Assembly (NCBI GenBank): GCA_030149525.1
Contig: JASBRJ010000354.1
Coordinates: 1-35,202, forward strand
DNA length: 35,202 nt
Origin: a bacterium
GTDB lineage: Bacteria; Vulcanimicrobiota; Xenobia; Xenobiales; JADMJV01
Reading direction: 5' to 3'
Shown: positions 19,787 through 33,821 of the stretch, in pieces
Layout: each line of letters starts with the position of its first letter
Numbering within the stretch: the first letter of the stretch is position 1
Notes under the pieces: generated by a model
Databases searched by the model: none
What the model saw: only the letters and a program-made list of their open reading frames with translations
What the model was told of the DNA's origin: nothing
Made by a program: the position numbers and the translations under genes

Positions 19787-21201
19787 GCGAGAGAACATCT
19801 CGGGAACTCGACGGCTATCTCGATCGAATGAGAGAGTCCGGCGACTTCGACTCTCAAGGATTTTTTACAGTGGCGGGACTGCGCGCGGTGGGAAAACTGG
19901 CTCGATTCTTGCTGGAGAAAGAGTCCGACTGGGTGCTCAAGTTCGTCCAGTGTGCCTGCGCGGCAGACTGTCCCGAGCTTCGAATCAAACAGACCCGAGT
20001 GGCAACCCAATTTCATTTCACCCTACCCTACGCGGTCCAACTCACAGACTTTGAACGGAGCCTGATTCAAGCGAAAAACACCACGGAGCAGCCGGGATTG
20101 GAAGATTTGACGGCGGCCTTGAGAGCGGTCGGTTTGGGCCAGAAACGGAACTGGGTGGCCAAGCTGAACACCCCCTCGAAGGAAACGCTCATAAGCTGCA
20201 GCGAGGGCAAGGTTTCCGCCGAGCAGACGCAAAGCGAGAGCGATCATGGTCCGGGAACGATGATCACTGTGGGCGTCTCCTACCCTCGGGGTCAGAGCGG
20301 TAAGGTGGCCGGTCTCATCCGCTTTGGCGAAGCCGTCCAAAGTGAGCACGAAACTCTCCGCGAACGGGCCCGCTGTTGCCCCATCCCACTCTACATGGAC
20401 GGCGTTCGTTTAGACGATCTCACAACCGACACACTTCGAATCGGCCTGGAGAACAAATCGTTTCTCGGGATCTCCGGCACTCCGGACAGCGGTCCTTCCG
20501 CTCTGCGAGTACCCGAAGGCATCTTGAGAGTGGAGAGCTTTCAAATCGAGGATCGCTTCGCCGACCCTGCTCCGTTTTACGCCCCTCACATCGAGCCTCG
20601 TAGCTCAGTGACTTCTCTTCAATGCTGGTATTTCAACTTCACCACTTCCAGAGAGAATCTGCATAAAAGCGGATTCTTCTTCCAAGCGGTCCCCACTCCG
20701 TCGAGAGTTTTCTTGATCAGACGCGGAGTTGTGGTGGGCTGTCGCTATTTTGGTTTGCGTCACCCCATCAGCGTCGACATCTATCTCAGGGCGGACAATT
20801 TGAAGTCCGACCTGACGGGATTGAGAGTGGATATCACCGACACAGAAATGCAGATAGCCGGTGACGAAATTCTTGGCTCGGGCGAATTCCTGCAAGGTCT
20901 CTCGCAAGTTCTCCGCAACCATAATCCGCGCCCCCTCAAGCAGCAGATGTTGCTCTATGGAAGCCTGGGAGCTCTCGGTTTAATGTCGCCGTTCTTCGCC
21001 TTGAAGGCCGTTGCCGGCACGGTTTCCACTTTGATGCTTGCAAACTCGGCCCGAAATCACCGCAAGGTGGTATCCGAATGCGTCCGCCAGTTGGAGGATT
21101 TCCGAGCTTGGCTTTCCACCAAGCGTCCATCGGCTAGCTCTGCAGACCCATCTCCGAACGCTCATCTTCCGTCAGAAGCTCCGAATACTTTTGAAAAATA
21201 A
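19783..21201 (+). CDS. Unrecognised 472-residue protein, possibly a degenerate GHKL-ATPase relative
   Basis: The TTG start at 19783 overlaps the previous stop (TTGA) and is preceded by GGAGGAG about 8 nt away. Earlier in-frame codons lie inside the TIGR02206 gene and are not used. Near residues 35-60, SDWVLKFVQCACAADCPEL resembles the first helix of a family of Hsp90-like ATPase-domain proteins in planctomycetes and deltaproteobacteria. Near 200, RERARCCPIPLYMDG resembles another block of it. I recall that family rather than having compared it. No intact ATP-binding motif is seen. Two adjacent hydrophobic segments near 385-425 anchor the C-terminus, followed by a short polar tail. The gene's tail overlaps the convergent PilZ gene by 68 nt. 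Confidence 0.6.
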   Translation: MSERTSRELDGYLDRMRESGDFDSQGFFTVAGLRAVGKLARFLLEKESDWVLKFVQCACAADCPELRIKQTRVATQFHFTLPYAVQLTDFERSLIQAKNTTEQPGLEDLTAALRAVGLGQKRNWVAKLNTPSKETLISCSEGKVSAEQTQSESDHGPGTMITVGVSYPRGQSGKVAGLIRFGEAVQSEHETLRERARCCPIPLYMDGVRLDDLTTDTLRIGLENKSFLGISGTPDSGPSALRVPEGILRVESFQIEDRFADPAPFYAPHIEPRSSVTSLQCWYFNFTTSRENLHKSGFFFQAVPTPSRVFLIRRGVVVGCRYFGLRHPISVDIYLRADNLKSDLTGLRVDITDTEMQIAGDEILGSGEFLQGLSQVLRNHNPRPLKQQMLLYGSLGALGLMSPFFALKAVAGTVSTLMLANSARNHRKVVSECVRQLEDFRAWLSTKRPSASSADPSPNAHLPSEAPNTFEK

Positions 21202-21565
21202 TACTCAGGACAGACATAAGACCCGCCTCGGAATTGAGTTCGTCCAAGAGCCCTTCGGCATCTTTGGAATTGTACATGATGAGCTTGGTGAGATGGCTCA
21301 GCTCGTCGGGCTCTGCGTGAACGACAGTGACGGCCACATCCGAGCCTTGGGCCCTCACAATTTCTACTTCAAACGTTGCCATGGCGTCGCCCAGGAACAG
21401 GTAAAACTGGCCGCGGTCTCCGGGCTGAAGAGCCGCATCGTCGCCAAGCTCCAAAAGGAGTCCATTAACGCTTGCGTCTCTGAGACTAGCGGGAAAACTC
21501 TTCTCCTTGACTTCCAGCTCTCCGCGAAACCTTAATTTTATGCGAGAAAATACACGTCGATTCAT
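21134..21565 (-). CDS. PilZ domain protein, adjacent to pilC
   Basis: 143 residues. The N-terminal 100 form a PilZ domain with RVFSR (RxxxR, residues 4-8) and DASVNG (DxSxxG, near 28), the two c-di-GMP-contacting motifs. A helical tail of about 45 residues follows. A PilZ gene divergent from pilC suggests c-di-GMP control of pilus biogenesis, by analogy with PilZ-type proteins of other type IV pilus systems. AAGGTGG 8 nt before the ATG at 21565 supports this start. An in-frame open stretch continues upstream to 21904 but lacks any recognisable protein. Confidence 0.85.
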   Translation of the reverse strand: MNRRVFSRIKLRFRGELEVKEKSFPASLRDASVNGLLLELGDDAALQPGDRGQFYLFLGDAMATFEVEIVRAQGSDVAVTVVHAEPDELSHLTKLIMYNSKDAEGLLDELNSEAGLMSVLSIIFQKYSELLTEDERSEMGLQS

Positions 21566-21628
21566 CGAGATACCACCTTTCATTAGGAAAGTCCCAAGCA
21601 CACTATCGGCAAGGCCTGCAAAAAGATA

Positions 21629-21772
21629 AGGTCGGGAAATGATGACCTGTTCATATTTGAGCAAAATACCACCCCTTCCATCCATCCTGATTCCACCTGG
21701 TTTCCGCCTTCCGGTCTTAGCGTAATGAGACAGGGATGTCCTTCGCTTTGCCCAACAAACAAGGAGTGGATA
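21629..21772 (-). promoter_or_regulatory. Candidate structured 5' leader of the PilZ gene (possible riboswitch)
   Basis: The 269-bp divergent region 21566-21834 has no plausible gene. On the minus strand it contains GGGCAAAGC, a GACA-UCCC-UGUC hairpin, ACGCUAAG and CCGG in that order. This is loosely reminiscent of the c-di-GMP-I (GEMM) aptamer layout (GGGCAAAC, hairpin, ACGCAAAGC), but with several deviations. About 75 nt further on, AGGUC-N10-GACCU (21629-21648) is followed by UAUCUUUUU, a weak terminator-like element before the PilZ start. This would be a fitting expression platform, but the aptamer match is poor. Confidence 0.3.
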
Positions 21773-21834
21773 TTGCTGTATTTCCCTGTGAAAGCGTTCA
21801 CTGGGATCGATCACGATACTGAGGCGCCCAAGGT

Positions 21835-22959
21835 ATGGCCAAGAGCTACATAGCTCGTCAGAGCGAACTCCAGATGGAGCGCTCGATGGAAAAAGAGAAA
21901 GCAAAAAAACTGCGGGTTCCGGCCAAGGTTTTGGTCGTCTTCGTTCGACAGCTGTCCATCATGTTCAAAAGCGGAATTCCCGCTGTTGAGGCCCTGGACA
22001 CCCTGAGCAATCAGCCCGAATCGGAAGTTCTGGGTCAAGTTGTCGCTCGACTGTCCAAACTGATCGGCGAAGGTCATCGCCTCTCCAACGCCATGAGCTA
22101 CTTCCCCGGCATCTTCGATCAGGTCTTTGTCTCCATGGTAGCTATCGGAGAAGAGAGCGGACAACTCGACGTTTCGCTTGAGCGCCTGGCTCGATGGAAG
22201 GAACGCGACTTTGAGTTGGTGCGGATGGTGAAGGGAGCCCTCAGCTATCCTCTCTTCATCCTCGCCCTGACTCTGGTTCTCACCTTTTTCCTCTTCTATG
22301 CGGTCATGCCCAATTTTGTCAGCATCTTCGAAGAGATGAAAGTCCCCCTTCCCCTGCCCACCAAGATCACCATGGCTATAACGGATGCTTCTCAGAATCC
22401 CGGGACCTGGCTCATTATCACCGCCGTAGGAGTGGCTATCTATGGCGTCATTCGAGAACAGTGGAAGACGGAGCAGGGCCGCATTCGAATGTTCACTTTC
22501 CTTCATGAGGTTCCGTTAGCCGGTCGATTAATTCGTCTGACCACCGTGTCCCGCTTTGCCGGCGCCATTGAGACACTCTTGGAGTCGGGACTGGGATTGC
22601 AGAAGACTCTCCGGTTGGGTGGTTTGAGTTCGGGGAGCCCCATCGTGAAAAAAGCCTCGGAAGATTTGGTGCAGCGGGTCAGCGACGGTGAACCCCTCTC
22701 CGACTACGTCATGATGAGAGTCGATCTCTTTCCCATGGCGTTCGCTCAGTACGTGGCCACCGGCGAAGAGACCTCACAGGTTTCAAAGATGATGGGGGAA
22801 GCTTCCAGACTCCTGGACGACGAAGTGACCTACAAGGTGGAGACTCTAAGCGCCACTCTGGAGCCTTTCATGCTTGGACTAGTGGCTTTCATCGTTGGCT
22901 TTGTTTTAGTCTCTATTTTCATTCCTTTGTACAACCACATTGGAAACCTAGGAACCTAG
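21835..22959 (+). CDS. pilC: PilC/GspF-family inner-membrane platform protein of a type IV pilus
   Basis: 374 residues with two tandem T2SSF domains (about 28-150 and 225-350) and three membrane helices (about 130-158, 185-205 and 345-367). Hallmarks are VFVRQLSIMFKSGIPAVEAL, SYPLFILALTL and EETSQVSKMM. PilC is the platform that the extension and retraction ATPases turn to assemble pilin. Typical PilC/GspF proteins have about 60 residues of a small N-terminal domain before the first T2SSF motif; here only about 30 mostly charged residues are present. A separate downstream gene (22999-23640) encodes a protein beginning with what looks like that missing domain. GAGG lies about 10 nt before the ATG. 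Confidence 0.92.
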   Translation: MAKSYIARQSELQMERSMEKEKAKKLRVPAKVLVVFVRQLSIMFKSGIPAVEALDTLSNQPESEVLGQVVARLSKLIGEGHRLSNAMSYFPGIFDQVFVSMVAIGEESGQLDVSLERLARWKERDFELVRMVKGALSYPLFILALTLVLTFFLFYAVMPNFVSIFEEMKVPLPLPTKITMAITDASQNPGTWLIITAVGVAIYGVIREQWKTEQGRIRMFTFLHEVPLAGRLIRLTTVSRFAGAIETLLESGLGLQKTLRLGGLSSGSPIVKKASEDLVQRVSDGEPLSDYVMMRVDLFPMAFAQYVATGEETSQVSKMMGEASRLLDDEVTYKVETLSATLEPFMLGLVAFIVGFVLVSIFIPLYNHIGNLGT

Positions 22960-22998: not shown

Positions 22999-23640
22999 CT
23001 AGTCTTTGACTCGCTTGAGCTCGGCCTGATAGGAGTACTCTCCCTTGGCGGCCGAGGACACTAGCGAGCCCGCGTCTTCGGCCACAGGCTTCCCCCCGTC
23101 CAACAGCTTCACTTCCACCTGAGAAGGTGTCTGCACAGCTTCCAATTCAAAGTTTGCCGAGGTGGCTCCCTTTTCCGGTTTGGCGCTCAGCGTAACGGGG
23201 ATCTCGGGCAGGCGAAGGGTGACCAAGTCGTAACGATAGTCTGCCGGATCGTACTGCACGGAAATTTTGTAAAGTTTGAATTCCGGTTCCGGCGGTGCCG
23301 TTTCTTTAGGCCCTCCCAGACTCCCCACGATGAGCCAGACGAAGCCTATGACAGCCAAGACCAGCGCGGTTTCACGACGCAGCAATCGAGACTGAACAAA
23401 ACCCCAGAAACGCTCCAACGGCGTCTCTTCAAAGTCGATGATGGCGGCCCGTTGAGGAGTGGGTCGCCCTCGCTTGCGAGTTTCTTCGTGAACAATGAGG
23501 TCGGTCTTCTCGCTCAGAGAGATCACCTCGAAGCCCGCCTTCATAAGACGCTTGCGGGCCGCCTCTTCGTCGACCTCGGAAACGTTGCCCTTGCGAACAC
23601 GCCCATCCTGCGAGCGTACAATGAAAGCGAACTTAGCCAT
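22999..23640 (-). CDS. Membrane protein with a free-standing GspF/PilC N-terminal-like domain
   Basis: 213 residues. Residues 1-45 (KFAFIVRSQDGRVRKGNV, EEAARKRLMKAGFEVISLSE) match the small N-terminal domain that normally begins PilC/GspF proteins. A charged linker, one membrane helix (about 91-110) and a 100-residue extracytoplasmic beta-rich domain of unknown type follow. The protein may bind the assembly ATPase or complement the shortened PilC, which is inference. The ATG at 23640 precedes the conserved domain directly; an upstream in-frame start at 23688 is less likely. The gene converges with pilC and diverges from the minor prepilin operon, between the two. Confidence 0.72.
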   Translation of the reverse strand: MAKFAFIVRSQDGRVRKGNVSEVDEEAARKRLMKAGFEVISLSEKTDLIVHEETRKRGRPTPQRAAIIDFEETPLERFWGFVQSRLLRRETALVLAVIGFVWLIVGSLGGPKETAPPEPEFKLYKISVQYDPADYRYDLVTLRLPEIPVTLSAKPEKGATSANFELEAVQTPSQVEVKLLDGGKPVAEDAGSLVSSAAKGEYSYQAELKRVKD

Positions 23641-23721: not shown

Positions 23722-25791
23722 ATGGATTGGCGCGCACGACGCGGCTTTTCGCTCATCGAAGTCACTGTCGTCCTGGGTCTCGTGGTCCTGGTCGCCGGAA
23801 TCACCTTGATGAGCCTGAAGCCCGGAAAAGACAAGACTTCCAGTCTGGCTCTGGCAACAGCTCTGGCCGACGAGTTTCGGTCGGCTCGGCAACTGGCCAT
23901 CAGTAACGGCCACCCTGTAGCGGTCTGCTTCCCCACCAACGGCGGCACCCAGGAGGTGGCCGACTCCATCTATCGCCTGGAGGGATGGAACGTGCCGCGG
24001 GTGACCTGGTCCAAGGGTTTCAGGGGAGATTACCCCGAGCTCGGATTCGGAGCAGCTAAATGGAGCGGCCCCACCTTCACCGACGGTGCTCCTCTGCCTC
24101 CGCTCACCAAAGCCGCCGCCTTCAACATCAACACCTGGGTTCCGTCGGCTCATCGTAACGACACGGTCTACTGCTTTACACCCGACGGTGGGGTCATCAC
24201 CGATAATTTGCCTGCCCTCAACGGCAACTACACTGTCGTGGTGGCTAAGAATCCAGCCATCGCCGGTCGCACCATTTCCGCGGGTGCCGATGCCACGGTT
24301 GTTCAGATCAGCGCTAACGGAGCGGTGAGCTACACCAAGGGCATCGCCCCTAAGTTGAGCGCCTCAAGTTCGGTGGCCCGTTCCAACCCCAAAGCGCGCG
24401 AACAGCTTTCAGGAAGCGCCACCATCCGACTGTCCGCCATCAACATTCGGCCGTCCGTCAACGATGCGACAGCCGACGCCTTTTGCACTCCCGGCCAGCA
24501 GGTCACTTTCGAACTTTTCGCTTACGACCCGGAAGGTCGGGAACTGTTCACTCAGTGGACTCAGACCGGTGCCGCAGGCGGCACAAGACTGGGAACTTTC
24601 ACCTTCCCCAACGGGACCACGGTTCTCACTTCGGAAACCGAGCGGATGGAGTACATTCCCAACCCTCAGGATTACAGTATCGACTGGGGTTCGGCAGCCG
24701 CCCCCACCGACGGATGTTTCCGCTCCCGATGGACCTGGACGGTGCCTCTCAACTCTCAGGTGGGCGACATCTACCAGGTGGAAGCCGATGTTCAAGACGC
24801 CACCGGTAACGCCACCATCGAAAACCGCCCGGACCCAATTCGCCTGCCGGCCCCACCGGCCGGTCGCTTGCTGGTGGAGATGTTCAACCCGCTGCTCAAT
24901 AGGGTTGAAATGGTCAGGATGAACCCCAACGGCAGCGGCAAGCAGATCCTCACTCCCATGGGGCTGGAAGAACAGATGCCCAGTGTGGACGGAAGTGGCA
25001 CGAAAGTGGCTTTCCTCCAAGGTCCCATTGGGAATATCAACAATCGAACGGTGAAAATTCGCTCTCTCACCGGTGGTGGCGAGTTCACCGTGGCCGGTCC
25101 CGGACGTTTCACTTCGGTCTCACTCTCCCCGGACGGCGCCTGGATCAGTTATCGCCTGGACAACGCCTCTGCCCCGGGGCAAGGCACGATCACCATTCGG
25201 TCGGTCGACCCTTCGGGTCCGGTCTTCACCGATGCCCAGAACTGGGGTGGGTCTGTTCAGGATGTGGAGAAGTGCCGGACGGGTTGGTCTTCCGACGGTC
25301 GGTATGCATACTGGGGTAACGACGCCAGCATTATGCGCACCGACCTTTTAGGTGGTTTCGCAACCAGCACAGTTTTTAGCTATACCACCAACGCTCTGGG
25401 ACTCCCGGAAAGACTCTTCGCGCCCAGCTGTTTCACCCCGACGACTGGGGGACCGGAACGACTCCTTTTCACCATCGGAAACTACAACCCCGTCATAGGC
25501 CATGTTGCCATTTCCAGTCTTCCCACCTCGGGTAGCTTCAACGACGGGACGATTACGCTCATCGATCTGAACGGCGGCGGCGGTGGCGCAGGGAGCGGTT
25601 CTTTCAACGACAATCTTCCGTCAGTGTCGGCCGACGGCAGAAGCGTAGTTCTTCCCCGGAGAGATCTGGCCACCGACGGCCCGGAAGGGGCTCTGATCGT
25701 GGATTGGAACGACGGTCTACAAAACTTTGTTTCCAACCCTCCGGGCAAAACAATCCAGGGAGACATCCGCTCCATCGTTTGGATACCGTGA
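23722..25791 (+). CDS. Giant FimT/GspH-type minor prepilin fused to a TolB-like beta-propeller
   Basis: 689 residues. A type III signal sequence (cleavage after Gly8, then FSLIEV with Glu at mature position 5) and a hydrophobic helix mark a prepilin; the following region resembles GspH/FimT (EFRSARQLAISNGHPVAVCF). Residues about 230-380 look like an Ig/PKD-type beta domain (NDATADAFCTPGQQVTFELFA). Residues about 385-690 contain TolB/WD40-like blades (SLSPDGAWISYR, WSSDGRYAYWG, SVSADGRSVVLPR). FimT proteins are usually 150-200 residues, so this is about four times longer. Such a head could not pack within a filament shaft and probably sits at the tip, perhaps as an adhesin. The start is the ATG at 23722 (GTG at 23716 is an alternative). 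The stop overlaps the next gene as GTGA. Confidence 0.85.
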   Translation: MDWRARRGFSLIEVTVVLGLVVLVAGITLMSLKPGKDKTSSLALATALADEFRSARQLAISNGHPVAVCFPTNGGTQEVADSIYRLEGWNVPRVTWSKGFRGDYPELGFGAAKWSGPTFTDGAPLPPLTKAAAFNINTWVPSAHRNDTVYCFTPDGGVITDNLPALNGNYTVVVAKNPAIAGRTISAGADATVVQISANGAVSYTKGIAPKLSASSSVARSNPKAREQLSGSATIRLSAINIRPSVNDATADAFCTPGQQVTFELFAYDPEGRELFTQWTQTGAAGGTRLGTFTFPNGTTVLTSETERMEYIPNPQDYSIDWGSAAAPTDGCFRSRWTWTVPLNSQVGDIYQVEADVQDATGNATIENRPDPIRLPAPPAGRLLVEMFNPLLNRVEMVRMNPNGSGKQILTPMGLEEQMPSVDGSGTKVAFLQGPIGNINNRTVKIRSLTGGGEFTVAGPGRFTSVSLSPDGAWISYRLDNASAPGQGTITIRSVDPSGPVFTDAQNWGGSVQDVEKCRTGWSSDGRYAYWGNDASIMRTDLLGGFATSTVFSYTTNALGLPERLFAPSCFTPTTGGPERLLFTIGNYNPVIGHVAISSLPTSGSFNDGTITLIDLNGGGGGAGSGSFNDNLPSVSADGRSVVLPRRDLATDGPEGALIVDWNDGLQNFVSNPPGKTIQGDIRSIVWIP

Positions 25792-26735
25792 AGAAAAAAC
25801 TCTCTTCCGGCGTCCTCATCGTCGAGGCGGTCATCGCCGCTTTCCTGATGGTCTTCGCTTTTGCCGCCTCGGCTTCGCTGTTCGACGCCTCTTTGCGATG
25901 GGAGTCCTTCAGTTCTAATCAGCGCAAAGCCGCTCTTTTGGCGGAACGAAAGATGGAAGAGATCCGAGCGCGAGCGACCGCCATTCCCTCGGGGCAAACC
26001 TTTGCTCAGCATATCGACTCCGTGATAGGTGGAACCCACAACCCCTATCCCGACGCCCCCGGCTTCGAGTTCACCGTGACGACTCTGCGCAACCGACATG
26101 TTCGCGTCCCCACCAGCGGGTTCACTCCCACCGATGGAGTCCACAGCCCTTGCAGCGTCCTCTACACCCAGCCCGACAATCCCGGGACGACCAACCGCAT
26201 CACTCCGGCTTATAATATCGATCCCCCCACTCCGTTCGACCCCAACGGTGCCGGTGATTTCCAGAAGAATAACTTTTACGACACCTACCCTTACAGTCGC
26301 TCCATGGCCAACAGCTACCGACTGGTGAAGGTGACTGTCTCCTTCGGCACCAACGGCGACCGTACCGTCGATCTTATCTCCCTCATCGGCGATCCCATCC
26401 TGCCTCCCAATCGCCCGGCCGACAACCTGAACAACACGGTCAATGTGGTTCGAACAGCGGGCAACAACGTTTTATCGGGCGCCTCCGACTTTGCCGAATA
26501 CGAGATCAGGGTGACCACGGCAAGTGGGGCCGTGGTGGAAGATGTATCGGCTCTATGGAGCGTCCACCCTCTCTCTACCGGTAGTGTAGACATCTTCTGT
26601 CTGAACGCAAGCGGCACGCGAGTCAGGGTCAGCCGGAACCGATTTTCGCGCAACGGAACCCGGGCCAGACTCTTTCCCAAAATCCGATACGAGGCAGAGG
26701 AAGCCCGAGGACTCAGCGAGTTTATCAACCTATGA
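25788..26735 (+). CDS. PilV/GspI-type minor prepilin
   Basis: 315 residues. The prepilin leader is short (KKKLSSG), followed by VLIVEAVIAAFLMVFAF with Glu at mature position 5 and a long hydrophobic helix. The GspI/PilV type is suggested by the order in the operon and by KAALLAERKMEEIRA after the helix. The C-terminal part is large and beta-rich with no domain that I recognise. The GTG start overlaps the preceding TGA (GTGA), and its own stop overlaps the next gene (ATGA). It would join the tip complex that primes pilus assembly. Confidence 0.85.
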   Translation: MKKKLSSGVLIVEAVIAAFLMVFAFAASASLFDASLRWESFSSNQRKAALLAERKMEEIRARATAIPSGQTFAQHIDSVIGGTHNPYPDAPGFEFTVTTLRNRHVRVPTSGFTPTDGVHSPCSVLYTQPDNPGTTNRITPAYNIDPPTPFDPNGAGDFQKNNFYDTYPYSRSMANSYRLVKVTVSFGTNGDRTVDLISLIGDPILPPNRPADNLNNTVNVVRTAGNNVLSGASDFAEYEIRVTTASGAVVEDVSALWSVHPLSTGSVDIFCLNASGTRVRVSRNRFSRNGTRARLFPKIRYEAEEARGLSEFINL

Positions 26736-27322
26736 ACCATCGCCGTGGACAAAAGGGTTTCACCCTGATTGAAATTATGATCGTGTTGCTGCTCACCGGC
26801 ATCATTCTCTTCATGGTGAGCCGGCTCACTTCGGAAACGTTCAAAAGCCTGCGCTTTCTCCAGGAAAAATCCCAGACATTGCAGAGCGCAACGCTGGGCC
26901 TGGAGCGTCTGACCTCCGAGCTTCGAGAGGCCGTTAGGGTCAACGGCGTTTCGCCTCTAAATTTCGACAAAATCAATCCCGCTGCACCCGTTTGCCTGGG
27001 CAACGACCCCAATGCACCGAATCCGGTGGGAACGTGGGTCAGAGACTATTCCAATGATGCCAACGGGGATAACCAGATCGGCGTCGTCGAGTATCGACGC
27101 GACGTCGCTCAACAGATTCTCACCCGCACCGCCACCTTGAACGGCCGTACCATGACCACCGAAGTGGCCGTTAACGTAAACGATTTCGTAGTTCAGCGAG
27201 GCCCCACTCTGGGCGGCAACACCACCGGGCGCAACGTCTTTCAGGTCACTCTTACCCTTCAAGAGCAACGCCGAGCGGTGACTTTTGTCAGCCTTCTCAC
27301 CGTCCCCGGAGAGCAGATATGA
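26732..27322 (+). CDS. PilW/GspJ-type minor prepilin
   Basis: 196 residues. The leader ends in Gly9, followed by FTLIEIMIVLLLTGIILFMV, with Glu at mature position 5. RLTSELREAVRVNG after the helix matches the GspJ/PilW type, where it packs onto GspI and GspK at the filament tip. It is joined by ATGA overlaps on both sides, so the four prepilins are likely made in fixed ratios. Confidence 0.87.
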   Translation: MNHRRGQKGFTLIEIMIVLLLTGIILFMVSRLTSETFKSLRFLQEKSQTLQSATLGLERLTSELREAVRVNGVSPLNFDKINPAAPVCLGNDPNAPNPVGTWVRDYSNDANGDNQIGVVEYRRDVAQQILTRTATLNGRTMTTEVAVNVNDFVVQRGPTLGGNTTGRNVFQVTLTLQEQRRAVTFVSLLTVPGEQI

Positions 27323-27846
27323 AGGCGACCCAACGGCGACCACGCGGCTCGCTCATCATCGCCGCTCTGCTGCTGTTCGCCCTGCTCCTGGCGCTCGGCC
27401 TCGGGCTGATGTCAAGTCAGGCGGCCCGGATGAACGCGGCTCGAGCTCAGACCGAAGCCATCCAGGCCAAATCTTTGGCGTTAGCCGGATGGGAAGATGT
27501 CCGAACCAAGCTAGGCAAAGATCTCTTCTTCCCCCCCAACAACGAACTGCAAGGGCACTACAGCTACTCCGAGGATGTCTACGACGATCTCCCCGGAGGA
27601 GGCTCAGAGTTTTTCGGCACCTACACGGTCATGATCGATACTCGCTGGTCCCGATTCGAACGAGATACGGGGGCCAATTTTCTGGTCAACTCTTTCTCCG
27701 ACGTTCCTCTCGGGTTCTTCATCGTTACCTGTGTGGGGAAGTTGGGCCCTCGCGGAGAGCCGCCGGTGGCAGAAAGAACCCTTCAGTTCGAAATCGATCC
27801 CCAAACCTTTCGGGTCATTCGGATGCATGATCAGCAGAGCTTGTAG
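27319..27846 (+). CDS. PilX/GspK-type minor prepilin
   Basis: 175 residues. The leader ends in Gly10, followed by SLIIAALLLFALLLALGLGLM. There is no Glu at mature position 5, a known trait of GspK-like pilins, which sit at the very tip. ARAQTEAIQAKSLALAGWEDVR after the helix matches the PilX/GspK pattern. It is shorter than the typical 300-residue GspK, and the usual large alpha-helical insertion appears reduced, so PilX-like is the better label. It begins in an ATGA overlap and is followed, 43 nt later, by the sensor kinase. Confidence 0.82.
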   Translation: MKATQRRPRGSLIIAALLLFALLLALGLGLMSSQAARMNAARAQTEAIQAKSLALAGWEDVRTKLGKDLFFPPNNELQGHYSYSEDVYDDLPGGGSEFFGTYTVMIDTRWSRFERDTGANFLVNSFSDVPLGFFIVTCVGKLGPRGEPPVAERTLQFEIDPQTFRVIRMHDQQSL

Positions 27847-27889: not shown

Positions 27890-30256
27890 GTGACCCCAAG
27901 GAACAAGGACCTTGATCCCGACCAGCCCCGACCGGTGGTAGCCTCTGCCTGGGTCGTATTCGGCCTGGGTTTGTGTTTTGCTTACTTTGCCCTGGCTCCG
28001 TCCACGGCCCTGCAGAAACCGGTCCCCTACGTGGTCTTCTACATTCTCGCCGTCCTCGTCCTCGATCTTTTTGTGGGCGCCTCACGGCGGGTGGTTCTTC
28101 AGCGGATCACACCGGCCGTCGTTCTGGGAATCCTCATTACCCCCGGCATTCCCGCCTCCGTAGCCATCGTGGCCGACCTGGTGGGAACCGTGGCCGTAGC
28201 CTCCACCTCCCGCCTCACCTGGAAACTGATCGGCCAGGCGGGACGAGCGCTCCTGCCGGTAGGCGTCTGCGCCCTTTATTTGCTCAGCCAGAACGCTCTG
28301 GAGCAGCGTCACTATCTCTTCTGCAGTGAAATCTTTCTTATCCTCTCCCTGCTCACCCGAACCTCGGACCCGCCCTATCGCAGCGACCTTTTCCTGGTGG
28401 TCTCCTACCCTGCCATCGCTTTCATGTTGCGATTTCTCTCCGATCTCTCTTTGATATACGTACTCCTGGCCGTTCCGCTCCTGTTTCTACTCACCACAGT
28501 CGACACGGAGATGATTCTTCGATACTTTCATTTGCAAAAGAAGCTCGACGACAGTCAAACCGCCTACCGAGAAACCCGTAAAGCCCAACGAGCCAGCGAA
28601 ATTGAGAGTCGGCGAAAGGGCATTCTTCTCAATCGACGAGAACAGGAACTTTCACTCCTCAACGGCCTGGGTCGCCAACTGGATGCCGCCAAGGCCGCCG
28701 ACGATCTGGCTCGCTATCTTTTGAAAGAGTGCCATCGACTCATCGGCGTAGACACCTCACTCATTCTTTTTTGTGATCGCCCGGATGGTCGGATACTTCG
28801 TATCATTAGTCCTGTCTCCAACGACTACTGGGGTCTCCGAGAGGGTGAGCCTGTCCCCGCCACCATGAAAGTGGGAATCACCGCGCGCCCCCCCTGGGAA
28901 GGGCCCGTCTGGAAAGGCAAGCGCTCTTTTCTCATGGCGCGCTTGGGAGAGCAGGGCTGGCTCATTCTCAGTCATGACGAAACGGATGCTTTCCCAGAGT
29001 TTCTCAACGACTTCTTCACCGCCGTAGGAAGGCACGCCGGCAGCTCGGTTTTGGCCATTCGGCGTCTGAGCGAAGTGAGAGAGATCGCCCGCCGGGAGGC
29101 CCTGGAGAAAGACAAGGTGGCCGCTGAGAAAGAGAAAGTCGCCGAGCAAAACCACAATCTCCGCTTGCTCATTGAACATTTTGAAGAACTCACCAAAGAG
29201 GCCTTGAACTCTGATCGAGAACTCTTCAAGCGAGCGGAGAAGGCGATCGCCAAGGTGGTCGCTGCCGATCTTGTGATCTTCGACTCTCGTCCACTTTCGG
29301 AGTATCCTCAGGACAAGTCCGGACTGCTGATCAACGGCACTCGTTGGGCCAGTCATCTGTTCATACCCGGGCAAGGTCCTTCGGGGAATCTCCTCTGCCT
29401 CGGTCTTGCCCCCGAAAGTTTTCAGGCCGGACAACAAGAATGGTGCAATCTGTTCAAGAACTTTCTGGATAAGACTCTTGAAAACGGCGTATTGCACAAA
29501 GAATTACGCTCCTCATACGCTCAGTTGGAGCGGACCCAGGAAGAGATTGTTCGGTCCAGTCAATGGGCCGCCGCAGGCCGACTGGCCGCCAACGCCGCCC
29601 ACGAGTTGAACACTCCTCTGGGAGCCATCAGACTGGCCGCCGAGCAGGTGAAGTTCTTTCTCAAACCCGACACCGTCCCAGAACCGGCCATTACCGGTGT
29701 GCAGTCGATTCTCCGATCGGTGGACCGCTGCCGTCAGGTGACCGACCGACTCCTCATCACCAGTCGACCGGTGGATCAGGGCGAGACAGAAGTCACGCCC
29801 GAGCTTCAGCCCCTAAATCCGATTATCCGAGATGCTATTGCCTCGATGCGACCTTACCTGCGAGCCTCGAATATCAAGCTCGCCGACCACCGCTTGACCG
29901 AAATGAAAGAAGGTCAAGTCGTGCTTCAGGACTTCTACTGGGCGGTGGTCAACCTGCTCAAGAATGCGGTGGATGTTCTGAGCGAGCAGAGCGGTGACGA
30001 CAAGCGGATCAATGTCGCCATGTCGGAGAAAGGAGATTTCCTCGAGGTCAGCGTGGCGGACAACGGGACAGGAGTGCCCGAAGAGCTTGCTCCCAAACTG
30101 TTCGAGCCGTTCTTCACCACCAAGAAATTAGGTCAGGGGAACGGGCTCGGACTGTCCCTGAGTCGGACCAATCTTCGCAAGTGGGGTGGAGACTTAGAGT
30201 ACTCCCCTACCCCCGGAGGAGGTGCAACTTTTACCATTTCGGTGCCCAAAGGCTAA
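27890..30256 (+). CDS. Membrane sensor histidine kinase linked to the minor prepilin operon
   Basis: 788 residues. Six or seven helices fill residues 18-205, followed by a coiled coil, a GAF-like region (about 255-390), a second coiled coil and another GAF-like region (about 430-540). The kinase core has AANAAHELNTPLGA with His near residue 571, N-box NLLKNAVDVL, G1 DNGTGVP, F-box FEPFFTTK and G2 GQGNGLGLS. It is a classical, not hybrid, kinase. The start is a GTG without ribosome binding site; TAAGAAT lies 8 nt upstream. Position after four prepilins and before the REC-SARP gene suggests that it reports pilus or surface state, in the manner of PilS, although the domain layout differs. Confidence 0.9.
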   Translation: MTPRNKDLDPDQPRPVVASAWVVFGLGLCFAYFALAPSTALQKPVPYVVFYILAVLVLDLFVGASRRVVLQRITPAVVLGILITPGIPASVAIVADLVGTVAVASTSRLTWKLIGQAGRALLPVGVCALYLLSQNALEQRHYLFCSEIFLILSLLTRTSDPPYRSDLFLVVSYPAIAFMLRFLSDLSLIYVLLAVPLLFLLTTVDTEMILRYFHLQKKLDDSQTAYRETRKAQRASEIESRRKGILLNRREQELSLLNGLGRQLDAAKAADDLARYLLKECHRLIGVDTSLILFCDRPDGRILRIISPVSNDYWGLREGEPVPATMKVGITARPPWEGPVWKGKRSFLMARLGEQGWLILSHDETDAFPEFLNDFFTAVGRHAGSSVLAIRRLSEVREIARREALEKDKVAAEKEKVAEQNHNLRLLIEHFEELTKEALNSDRELFKRAEKAIAKVVAADLVIFDSRPLSEYPQDKSGLLINGTRWASHLFIPGQGPSGNLLCLGLAPESFQAGQQEWCNLFKNFLDKTLENGVLHKELRSSYAQLERTQEEIVRSSQWAAAGRLAANAAHELNTPLGAIRLAAEQVKFFLKPDTVPEPAITGVQSILRSVDRCRQVTDRLLITSRPVDQGETEVTPELQPLNPIIRDAIASMRPYLRASNIKLADHRLTEMKEGQVVLQDFYWAVVNLLKNAVDVLSEQSGDDKRINVAMSEKGDFLEVSVADNGTGVPEELAPKLFEPFFTTKKLGQGNGLGLSLSRTNLRKWGGDLEYSPTPGGGATFTISVPKG

Positions 30257-30283: not shown

Positions 30284-32644
30284 ATGGAAGTAACGAGAGC
30301 CAAGATCCTACTCCTTGAAGACGACCCGGAGATGCGCGCCATCCTGGAGCAGATCCTGAGCTATCAGGACTATGACGTGACGGCTGTGGAGACAGGATTT
30401 CAAGCCATCGAAGCCGCCAAGAGCAATAGCTTCGACCTCATCGTTGCCGACGTTCGGGTGGACGGACCCGACGGGATTGAAGTCCTGTCCGAAGCTCGCA
30501 AGGATCAACCCGAGGTGGGAACTCTCCTGGTCTCCGGATATTCCTCCCTGGAAGACGACGCCCGGGCGGAGAAAGTGGGTGTTGGAGGCTTTCTTCGTAA
30601 GCCGTTCGAGACCCAGAGATTCTTAGAGTTAGTCCAGCAGCAGCTTCATAAACGGCGCAAGAGCAAGCAGGAACGGAATGTGGAACAAGAGGGCGCGAGT
30701 GTCCTCATGACCACCATCAACACCTTGTGTCAGGCCTTCAGTGTCAGTCCCGAAAAAGGGCAACCGGAGAGGGTGAGTCGCGCTCGAGAAGTGGCCACTC
30801 GGTTGGGAGTCGCCTCAGGCCTTGAGGGCCAAGTCCTCCATCAGGTTTCTGCCGCGGCCGTTCTTGCTGTGATGCCTGAGAGAAGCGTTGGCGATCTGCG
30901 GAAAGCGTTGAGCGAATCCTCCAATCAAGTCGACTCTTTGTCCGAGGCCCTTCAGCACTACCAGCGTCCTAACGACGACGACCCCAAGCCTCCACTTGAA
31001 GCTCGAATCGTGCGTCTGGTGAAGGCGATTATCGAAGAGCAGGATCTGGATTCGGCGGGGTTAGACAAAGAACTTGTGGCCCTTTATCGCTCGGAGAAGA
31101 GTTACACAGTTTCCGGCAAACCCGACGGTCAGGACGGAAACACGCAGCAGAGTGAGAGCTTTCTGGCCATCGCCCAGGCCTTGGAACGAGCCGGAGATAG
31201 CAAAGGAGCAGAGGCGGCTTATAAAGAGCTCTTAGAAAGTAAGCCTGGCGGAGAAGCCACTGTGGAAGCTCAATTGGGACTAGCCCGTTTGGCCGTTCTC
31301 AAAAGCGACCGGGAGTCGGTTCGGCGGTGGGTCGCCAAGGCCACCGAAGTGGCCAACTCGGTGGGTCGATTCCGCTCTTGTCTGACCGATTATTACGGAG
31401 GACTTCTCCTTCGTCAGGTAGGCGACGGAGACGCCAAGCGACTTCTCAGAAGAGCCGTTCCCTCATTAATAAAGTTCGGATTCTCCGATGCGGTTGCCTT
31501 GTCGGCGGTGGCCCTCATTGCCGAGGGAGAGCCGGTGGATCAGGAGCGTTGGAAGACCATCGGCCGTCGGCTCCTTTCGCCCTCTTTGAGCCGAGATATT
31601 CAAAAGCACGCCATGTGGTTTATCCCGGCTCTGCTGGAAATTCTCAGTAAACACCCCATTCCCGGGTTTCTGGGCGGCTTTGTGAACCATCTTCCTCGCC
31701 TCTTCAGTCGCATGTTGGAAGAGCAGCTTCTCAAGCCGGAAGACAGGGTGAAGTTGGCTCAGTTGCTGAGCAAGGAAGAGTCCCAGGTCCCGGAATCGGT
31801 CTGGAAACTTCTGAGTCAGGACACCAGCACCGAAGTGCGCGACACCAGCAAAGGCCTCAAAGTGAGAGTGGAAGCCATCGCGGCCCCCTCGCTCATACGC
31901 CTTTCCTCTCTGGGGCCTTTCGAGGTCCAGTGCGGGGGCGAGACCATTCCCGACCGAACCTGGCGAACTCAACGAACTCGATACCTCTTCGCTTATCTCG
32001 GCTATGAGTGGGGTCGGGCCGTGCACGAAGAGATCTTGCTGGACGCTCTCTGGACGGACAATGAAACTCCCGACAAAAAGGGGTTATACTGGAGCACCTC
32101 GGCCATCCGTCGCATTTTCCGCGGGCTGGGATTTCAATCCGAAGTGGTGGAGCGTGTGGGAGAGACCTTACGCAGCAATCCCAACGTCTCCATCTGGCAC
32201 GACGTCAACGTTTTGGAAGCGCATTTTGCCTCAGCTCAGCAAGCCGCCGATAAAGGTGACTCCGAACGGGCAAAAGCGGAGCTGAGAGCCGCTCTGGAAG
32301 TTTATCGGGGTCCGTATTTAGAAGGCTGCTACCTCGATTGGGCCCTGCGCCGACGCCAGGACTTGGAACGCCAAACCGCCGACGCCGCCCTTCAGTTGGC
32401 TCAACTACATCTGGATACCGGGGAGCATCGGGAGGCGGTTGAGGCGGCACGAAAAACTCTAACACTTGAGCCCGCACGTCAAGAAGCCCACCTCCTGGCC
32501 ATGAAGGCGCTTATGGATGGCGGGCGTCCTGAGGCCGCTATCGACCAGTATCATGAGTGTGAGAAGATGCTTCGTCAGCACTACGACACCGAGCCTGAAA
32601 CGGTGATGATCGAGTACTTCCACAGAGCCAAATTGTTAATGTGA
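30284..32644 (+). CDS. Response regulator: REC-TPR-SARP/BTAD transcription factor
   Basis: 786 residues. The receiver domain (1-120) has acidic EDD (12-14), phosphoacceptor Asp56 in LIVADVRV, Ser84 and Lys106 in LRKPF. Helical repeats of TPR type follow (about 285-480, for example AQALERAGDSKGAEAAYKEL). A winged-helix domain of the SARP/OmpR type lies at about 535-640 (SLGPFEVQCGG, STSAIRRIFRGLG), and a bacterial transcriptional activation domain (BTAD) at about 642-786 (YRGPYLEGCYLDWALRRRQ, GEHREAVEAA). SARP proteins activate transcription, often of secondary metabolism in actinobacteria. A receiver domain on a SARP protein is unusual. It lies 27 nt after the kinase gene, so kinase and regulator should form a pair. 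A strong terminator lies about 100 nt downstream. Confidence 0.88.
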   Translation: MEVTRAKILLLEDDPEMRAILEQILSYQDYDVTAVETGFQAIEAAKSNSFDLIVADVRVDGPDGIEVLSEARKDQPEVGTLLVSGYSSLEDDARAEKVGVGGFLRKPFETQRFLELVQQQLHKRRKSKQERNVEQEGASVLMTTINTLCQAFSVSPEKGQPERVSRAREVATRLGVASGLEGQVLHQVSAAAVLAVMPERSVGDLRKALSESSNQVDSLSEALQHYQRPNDDDPKPPLEARIVRLVKAIIEEQDLDSAGLDKELVALYRSEKSYTVSGKPDGQDGNTQQSESFLAIAQALERAGDSKGAEAAYKELLESKPGGEATVEAQLGLARLAVLKSDRESVRRWVAKATEVANSVGRFRSCLTDYYGGLLLRQVGDGDAKRLLRRAVPSLIKFGFSDAVALSAVALIAEGEPVDQERWKTIGRRLLSPSLSRDIQKHAMWFIPALLEILSKHPIPGFLGGFVNHLPRLFSRMLEEQLLKPEDRVKLAQLLSKEESQVPESVWKLLSQDTSTEVRDTSKGLKVRVEAIAAPSLIRLSSLGPFEVQCGGETIPDRTWRTQRTRYLFAYLGYEWGRAVHEEILLDALWTDNETPDKKGLYWSTSAIRRIFRGLGFQSEVVERVGETLRSNPNVSIWHDVNVLEAHFASAQQAADKGDSERAKAELRAALEVYRGPYLEGCYLDWALRRRQDLERQTADAALQLAQLHLDTGEHREAVEAARKTLTLEPARQEAHLLAMKALMDGGRPEAAIDQYHECEKMLRQHYDTEPETVMIEYFHRAKLLM

Positions 32645-32744
32645 TGTTCATAAATCGTTTACCCACTGTTTACATTCGCCCCCTTTACCAGGGCTTGATC
32701 GGTGGGAGAACAGGGGCAGAACACACTCCTCGATTTGTATAGAG

Positions 32745-32772
32745 CCTCCCGATTATGGGGGGTCTTTTTTTT
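32745..32772 (+). terminator. Intrinsic terminator of the prepilin-kinase-regulator operon
   Basis: CCTCCC-GATTAT-GGGGGG forms a 6-bp stem, one pair being a G-T wobble, followed by TC and eight T. The T-run touches the stop codon of the convergent SLH gene. It works only in the plus direction. Confidence 0.85.
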
Positions 32773-33688
32773 ATTTCTGGCCGACCAACTTGTAGCCGTA
32801 CTTTGCCTTGATGCGCTCTACACAGAGGGCGGCTTCGGCTCGGGTCACTTCTTTTTGAGGGTAGAAAGTCTTGAAGCTGCCCCAGATGTGAGAGGCAGTT
32901 TGAGAGCCGTAGCTAGAATTGTCACAGTTGTGGACCGCCTGCTTGTACTTGGGTGATATTTTCTCAAAATCGGTATAGCGTGGGCCGCAGTTGCCGTTCA
33001 TTTGGGGCTCGGCCTTGTCGAAGCTCACCTTGATAGCGATCATCTCTTCACGGGATAGGTTGCGTTCCGGGCGAAATGTGGTTTCGTCGTAGCCGATGAC
33101 AAAGCCTGAATTGGTGGCTCCCTGGACGAAGGGAAAGTAGGGGCTGTCTGGCGTGACATCGGTGAACTTGGAGTCCCCTGTTGTGGCCGGACGGACCTGT
33201 GTGGTTCTCGGGTTAACCGTGTTGGTCGCCTTCACCAACCATTGCAAAAATTCGCCCCTGGAAATCGGCTCGTTGGGACGAAACTTGCCGTCACCCAGTT
33301 CGATGACACCGGCTTTGAGCAGTCGACTGACGGTTTCCGCAGCATACTCACCCTCCAGGTCTTGGAAGGACATCTGGGTTTCCGCCTGGAGTTCTTGGGT
33401 TCGGGCCAACTGGAGGTGGTTTTTGTTCAGCTCAAGACTGAGAGCCTTGAGCTTCTTCTCCCCCTTGAGCCGACCAGCTTTCTCCTCAGCGAGCTTCTTC
33501 TCCAGAGCCTCAACCTGAATCTCCAGCGACTTTACCAAATCGGAACTGGCCTGGAGTTCTTGTCGAGCCTGGGCCAACTCGGTGTCGACCGAAGTGAATC
33601 TCTGAGATGCCAGAGTGTGGCTGTAGCCGGTAAACGCCAGGCTTGTGATCAAAAATCCAGCAAATAGTGTGTTCTTAAGTTTCTTCAT
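32771..33688 (-). CDS. Secreted coiled-coil protein with three C-terminal S-layer homology domains
   Basis: 305 residues. A signal peptide (1-29) is followed by a long coiled coil (about 33-115, heptads such as LEIQVEALEKKLAEE) and three SLH modules (about 112-157, 175-222 and 238-300; RFRPNEPISRGEF-like and FRPERNLSREE motifs). SLH modules bind secondary cell-wall polymers or peptidoglycan. The third is divergent and contains two Cys (CGPRYTDF, HNCDNSS). In S-layer and outer-membrane tether proteins of Deinococcus, Thermus and cyanobacteria, SLH lies at the N-terminus; here it lies at the C-terminus. GGGAGG 7 nt before the ATG at 33688 fixes the start. Confidence 0.9.
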   Translation of the reverse strand: MKKLKNTLFAGFLITSLAFTGYSHTLASQRFTSVDTELAQARQELQASSDLVKSLEIQVEALEKKLAEEKAGRLKGEKKLKALSLELNKNHLQLARTQELQAETQMSFQDLEGEYAAETVSRLLKAGVIELGDGKFRPNEPISRGEFLQWLVKATNTVNPRTTQVRPATTGDSKFTDVTPDSPYFPFVQGATNSGFVIGYDETTFRPERNLSREEMIAIKVSFDKAEPQMNGNCGPRYTDFEKISPKYKQAVHNCDNSSYGSQTASHIWGSFKTFYPQKEVTRAEAALCVERIKAKYGYKLVGQK

Positions 33689-33821
33689 AGTAAGACCTCC
33701 CGTGCTTTTTAGCATTGTGCGGGTCTCGGCTGAAGAACGCCGTGAGATCAGACACAGTGTGAGGAGGTTCACACCGTGCGATTGCTCCAGGCTTGCCGCC
33801 CTGGACCCCTTGGTCCTGTCT

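Follow-up and report, generated by a model that had tools for sequence, protein, structure and literature searches.

A predicted minor pilin with a C-terminal TolB-type propeller, multiplied into a candidate set of pilus-tip heads

The window, which is the whole stretch of 35,202 nucleotides of bacterial DNA analysed here, encodes a predicted protein in which an Ig-like domain connects a FimT/GspH-type pilin module with a TolB-type propeller. The gene heads a set of four pilin genes and lies beside the gene of a platform protein. With a probability of roughly 60%, we consider it to be a modular minor pilin that shows its propeller on a type IV filament, at the tip or close to it, with tips that are exchangeable across cassettes. 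The fusion recurs 5 to 13 times in each of several related genomes, as would be expected if the pilus tip were fitted with interchangeable heads.

Domain organization of the propeller pilin

The frame (23722..25791, + strand) encodes 689 residues of a conserved protein family, and its coding part (23722-25788) is uninterrupted. The first eight residues (23722..23745, +) form a class III (prepilin) leader, MDWRARRG/FSLIEVTVVLGLVVLVAG, with Gly at position -1 (G8/F9), Glu at mature position 5 (FSLIE) and a hydrophobic helix next to it. Cleavage by a prepilin peptidase is predicted after Gly8. The N_methyl model scores 21.5 bits against a Pfam cut-off of 21.2. The pilin module (23746..24366, +) consists of the hydrophobic helix starting from F9 and a GspH match over residues 45-177 (PF12019, E 2.7e-5), which at 25.1 bits is above the Pfam cut-off of 21. 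Both the type III signal with Glu5 and the GspH/FimT-like region of the original prediction are thereby confirmed. Judged from the window sequence by itself, the pilin half is firm and the propeller is suggested.

Next in the chain is an Ig-like (Big_9/PKD-type) linker domain at about residues 233-375 (24418..24846, +). The Ig/PKD-type domain proposed for this protein holds at the level of the family, where it is seen in the alignment and where Big_9 is matched by 2/25 members in a single-sequence Pfam scan; it does not extend to a Pfam call in the window protein, which has none for this domain.

Residues 381-689 (24862..25788, +) are assigned to a TolB/WD40-type propeller by homology (PD40, profiles and a blade scan). 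In the window protein PD40 scores 20.0 bits (E 6.8e-4), below the Pfam cut-off of 20.9, and the NCBIfam TolB model 19.6 bits (E 3.5e-4), far under its equivalog cut-off of 343. Among 25 members scanned singly, one of them cut by a contig end, 15 match PD40, the best at E 7.5e-26. When the C-terminal segments of 24 members are combined into a profile, it matches crystal structures of TolB at E values of about 1e-26 to 4e-26, and its match to the WD-40 protein 2ymu reaches 1e-68. The full-length family profile likewise matches TolB structures and WD-40 proteins. When the window protein was left out of the C-terminal profile to avoid circularity, the profile matched the C-terminus of the window protein at E 8.4e-11, the best of 1000 shuffles reaching 0.025. 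These matches agree with the TolB-like C-terminal propeller expected originally, and homology to TolB/WD40 propellers is supported by sequence comparison, weakly for the window protein taken singly and clearly for the family.

A motif scan gives four weak blade matches in the window protein, at residues 403-433, 465-482, 522-533 and 629-647, and a blade model trained without this protein scores 17.8 bits in total versus 6.2 for the best of 300 shuffles, which fits the proposal of at least three blades. Our own reading of the sequence is that there may be six, in a ring that closes where the first strand meets the last. AlphaFold run without an alignment on residues 376-689 yielded a mean pLDDT of 35.7, so that fold and blade number rest on homology.

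A family of related fusions

The genome to which the window belongs (8.27 Mb in 398 contigs) contains seven propeller-pilin genes including that of the window, with frames of 688-775 aa, and one additional weak N-terminal match in a short frame. The other six members are 25-33% identical to the window protein. Near relatives belonging to the same family or order have 5-11 members each by this search, and a profile of the pilin and Ig parts detected 5-13 in each of six such genomes; the FimT-propeller fusions anticipated in related genomes are thus present. Open frames of 600-850 aa hold more than 50 of the 70 matches to this profile (counted by eye), and the shorter matches are mostly at contig ends or in split-looking frames. 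With the same profile, members are present in 9/149 genomes of the phylum. Six of these belong to one family, another comes from a second family within that order, one is a further genome of the class, and one is from a more distant family and carries two members in tandem. A tenth genome of the phylum has a short pilin match only. Long frames matching the profile are absent from 198 genomes of the phylum that includes the PilY1 control genome described below. In Planctomycetota, ordinary propellers dominate the matches to the full-length profile, and none among the matches listed reaches the pilin part. A search with a generic pilin pattern returned four ordinary pilins from other phyla.

Median identity among the members is 32% in the pilin part, 23% in the Ig part and 19% in the propeller. 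This divergence of the propellers means that their binding partners are not to be guessed from sequence. The distances of the three parts correlate across members (Spearman about 0.5; 0/1000 permutations as high in a Mantel test), which fits one old fusion whose parts have been passed on together.

The correlation between pilin and propeller distances also bears on the question of whether the frame could stem from a sequencing or assembly error by which a propeller gene with no relation to it was attached to a FimT gene, the case that the original prediction had named as its refutation. Such an error is consistent with the lack of a Pfam propeller match above the cut-off in the window protein taken alone. 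However, the same fusion is found in more than 50 uninterrupted frames of nine genomes, and third-position GC is alike along the whole gene. Since paralogues and relatives carry the same fusion, a frame-joining artefact is excluded, and the probability that we leave to this reading is negligible.

Organization of the pilin operon

The propeller pilin is the first gene of a translationally coupled set of four pilin genes, all joined by 4-base stop/start overlaps (GTGA, ATGA and ATGA). It is followed by a PilV/GspI-like minor pilin (25788..26735, +), whose GTG start overlaps the propeller-pilin stop by 4 bases and whose product reads SG/VLIVEAVIAAF and then AALLAERKMEEIRA, and by a PilW/GspJ-like one (26732..27322, +; N_methyl E 6.5e-8). 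Homologues of both are found in sister cassettes. The last is a PilX/GspK-like minor pilin (27319..27846, +; NCBIfam GspK E 2e-4), RG/SLIIAALLLF, which has no Glu5, as is the case in pilins of the GspK/PilX type. The gene order is the canonical H-I-J-K (FimU-PilV-PilW-PilX), with the assignments of PilV and PilW resting on order and on weak or generic model matches. The first place in a FimU/PilV/PilW/PilX-like set supports the filament-tip location put forward originally.

Upstream of the pilins there is a T2SSF/PilC-type platform protein (21835..22959, +; PF00482 E 7e-48) without the usual N-terminal domain. A separate ORF (22999..23640, -), divergent from the pilin operon, encodes a domain that resembles the N-terminal one of PilC, together with a single membrane span and an additional domain, and has a homologue at a sister locus (L057, E 1.7e-9). 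Judging by their sequences, the two genes look like a split platform protein. A full-length platform protein elsewhere in the same genome (L092) has the N-terminal domain that the PilC/GspF protein of the cassette is without. The platform gene is adjoined by a gene for a PilZ-domain protein (21137-21904, -), hinting at control by c-di-GMP.

At the sister loci, PilV-, PilW- and PilX-like neighbours recur, the propeller pilin is either first or last, and a T2SSF gene is present in several of them. The position of related fusions within their operons, which was to be checked, agrees with a cassette whose partners recur beside the paralogues. Each propeller pilin usually has its own small pilin operon. 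One locus (L057:3818-16999) contains two adjoining cassettes, and in each of them a propeller pilin is accompanied by three small pilins and a platform gene. In the genome of the distant family, the tandem propeller pilins come after PilV-, PilW- and PilX-like genes (L055:9272-13802), showing that the propeller pilin can stand last and be doubled.

Downstream, 43 bases after the last pilin, there is a gene for a membrane histidine kinase (27890..30256, +; HisKA and HATPase_c), then one for a response regulator in which the domain search found TPR and BTAD domains (30284..32644, +), and then a terminator-like hairpin with a T tract (32744..32772, +), a consensus match only and the likely end of the operon. 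Just past the hairpin is a gene for a protein with three SLH domains (32774-33772, -). This arrangement allows the propeller to be seen as a contact sensor, the state of the pilus tip being read through the kinase and the regulator. Kinase and regulator genes are also found beside the cassettes of L057, and the PilZ protein is nearby. Nevertheless, most sister cassettes have no adjoining kinase, and the window kinase resembles the neighbours of other cassettes in the catalytic core only. The link to the kinase is consequently not conserved, the kinase/regulator pair was rejected as a conserved part of the cassette and is regarded as a neighbour, and a sensor of this kind appears improbable.

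Filament systems in the genome

The filament cassettes of this genome are extremely expanded, with more than 100 prepilin-like leaders versus approximately five strong PilB-type ATPases. There are 114 N_methyl matches, among which frames longer than about 340 aa belong to this family only. Counting 76 half-domain matches per frame gives 38 T2SSF platform genes, whereas PilB-type ATPases at E below 1e-100 number five and clear secretins two. Many platform genes against few ATPases and secretins fit shared motors with many tips.

The same inventory bears on whether the cassette builds a pseudopilus of the type II secretion kind, in which the propeller would recruit or gate secreted substrates in the periplasm and would not be displayed on the surface. 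The pilin of GspH type, the GspH-I-J-K gene order, the GspK-like fourth pilin and the adjoining platform gene are all compatible with it. We consider it unlikely, though somewhat less so than the contact sensor, as seven propeller cassettes in the genome stand against only two clear secretins, and neither a secretin nor an ATPase family was called among the window genes scanned. It would also be difficult to fit a propeller of approximately 300 residues on each H subunit into a pseudopilus that is short and confined to the periplasm.

PilY1 (PF05567) has no match over the cut-off in 148 genomes of the phylum, the genome of the window included, and PF05567 is matched by 0/25 family members at E 0.01. 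As the controls built into the search were silent for the PilY1 family, a separate control genome (that of L036) was used, in which the same search finds PilY1 on a contig with a FimT/PilW/PilV locus.

Proposed role and evolution

In the reading that we prefer, with the propeller displayed at the filament tip, the four pilins would together form the complex that initiates a type IV filament. The Ig arm would hold the bulky propeller out at the tip or close to it, where the propeller could either bind an outside ligand or surface, or prime the filament in the way of the PilY1 propeller docked on FimU-PilV-PilW-PilX. One chain would merge the FimU-type subunit and the propeller head, doing the work of FimU plus PilY1 elsewhere, and the head would not need separate docking. 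The several cassettes per genome may supply exchangeable tips on shared machinery. A role as an adhesin or receptor, put forward originally, is a plausible extension of this model.

As for the origin of the cassettes, a tentative scenario, which we hold to be somewhat doubtful, is that a lineage without detectable PilY1 fused a propeller to a FimU-type pilin once and that copying then produced as many as 13 cassettes per genome, all having minor pilins of their own and many also a truncated platform protein. Few motors would then serve many diversifying tips.

At pilus tips, the propeller of PilY1 works jointly with the four core minor pilins, but it is difficult to study how a propeller secreted as a separate protein is retained there. 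A propeller that is naturally and covalently fused to a FimU-type pilin offers a direct handle on the tip geometry, and with dozens of divergent propellers sharing one kind of pilin stem, tip specificity is open to comparison and test.

Comparison with known systems

The window protein resembles GspH/FimT/FimU minor pilins in its pilin module and in its gene order with I-, J- and K-type partners, the one of K/PilX type being without Glu5. Ordinary pilins of this kind end after about 150-200 residues, whereas the window protein adds about 470. With TolB of the Tol-Pal system it shares blades of the PD40 type and clear profile similarity, but there is no match outside the propeller, the score is far below the equivalog cut-off and the gene context is that of minor pilins.

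In Myxococcus xanthus, PilY1, which has a propeller, joins FimU, PilV, PilW and PilX in a complex that is found at the tip of the pilus and primes it, and three FimU-PilV-PilW-PilX-PilY1 clusters serve one machine (PMC7541494). The present cassettes are similar in that a propeller and four minor pilins are encoded together, in several clusters per genome. PilY1, however, is a separate secreted protein with a propeller of the PF05567 type, while in the present family propeller and FimU-like pilin are one covalent chain.

Modular pilins, of which 264 architectures were counted in 2021 according to the article text (PMC8179133), are known already. As in those, the extra module of the window protein is, by its sequence, not pilus-specific and is fused C-terminal to the pilin module. 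The same text describes a module grafted on a pilin of Streptococcus sanguinis as an adhesin most probably located at the tip, the vWA module being a proven one (Raynaud, 2021, PMC8179133). It names no pilin with a propeller among the modules, although its full data set may list one (PMC8179133), and a description of the FimT-propeller family was not found in the literature searched. A FimT-type pilin that bears a propeller and has spread into many cassettes thus seems to be a new form among the modular pilins. Compared with PilB and PilC of S. sanguinis as described in that text, the window protein has the same succession of class III leader, pilin module and bulky module on the C-terminal side, for which a tip location is expected (PMC8179133). 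The module is vWA or lectin in PilB and PilC and a TolB-type propeller after an Ig arm in the window protein, and the module is carried here by a GspH/FimT pilin that belongs to an H-I-J-K set and is present in 5-13 copies per genome.
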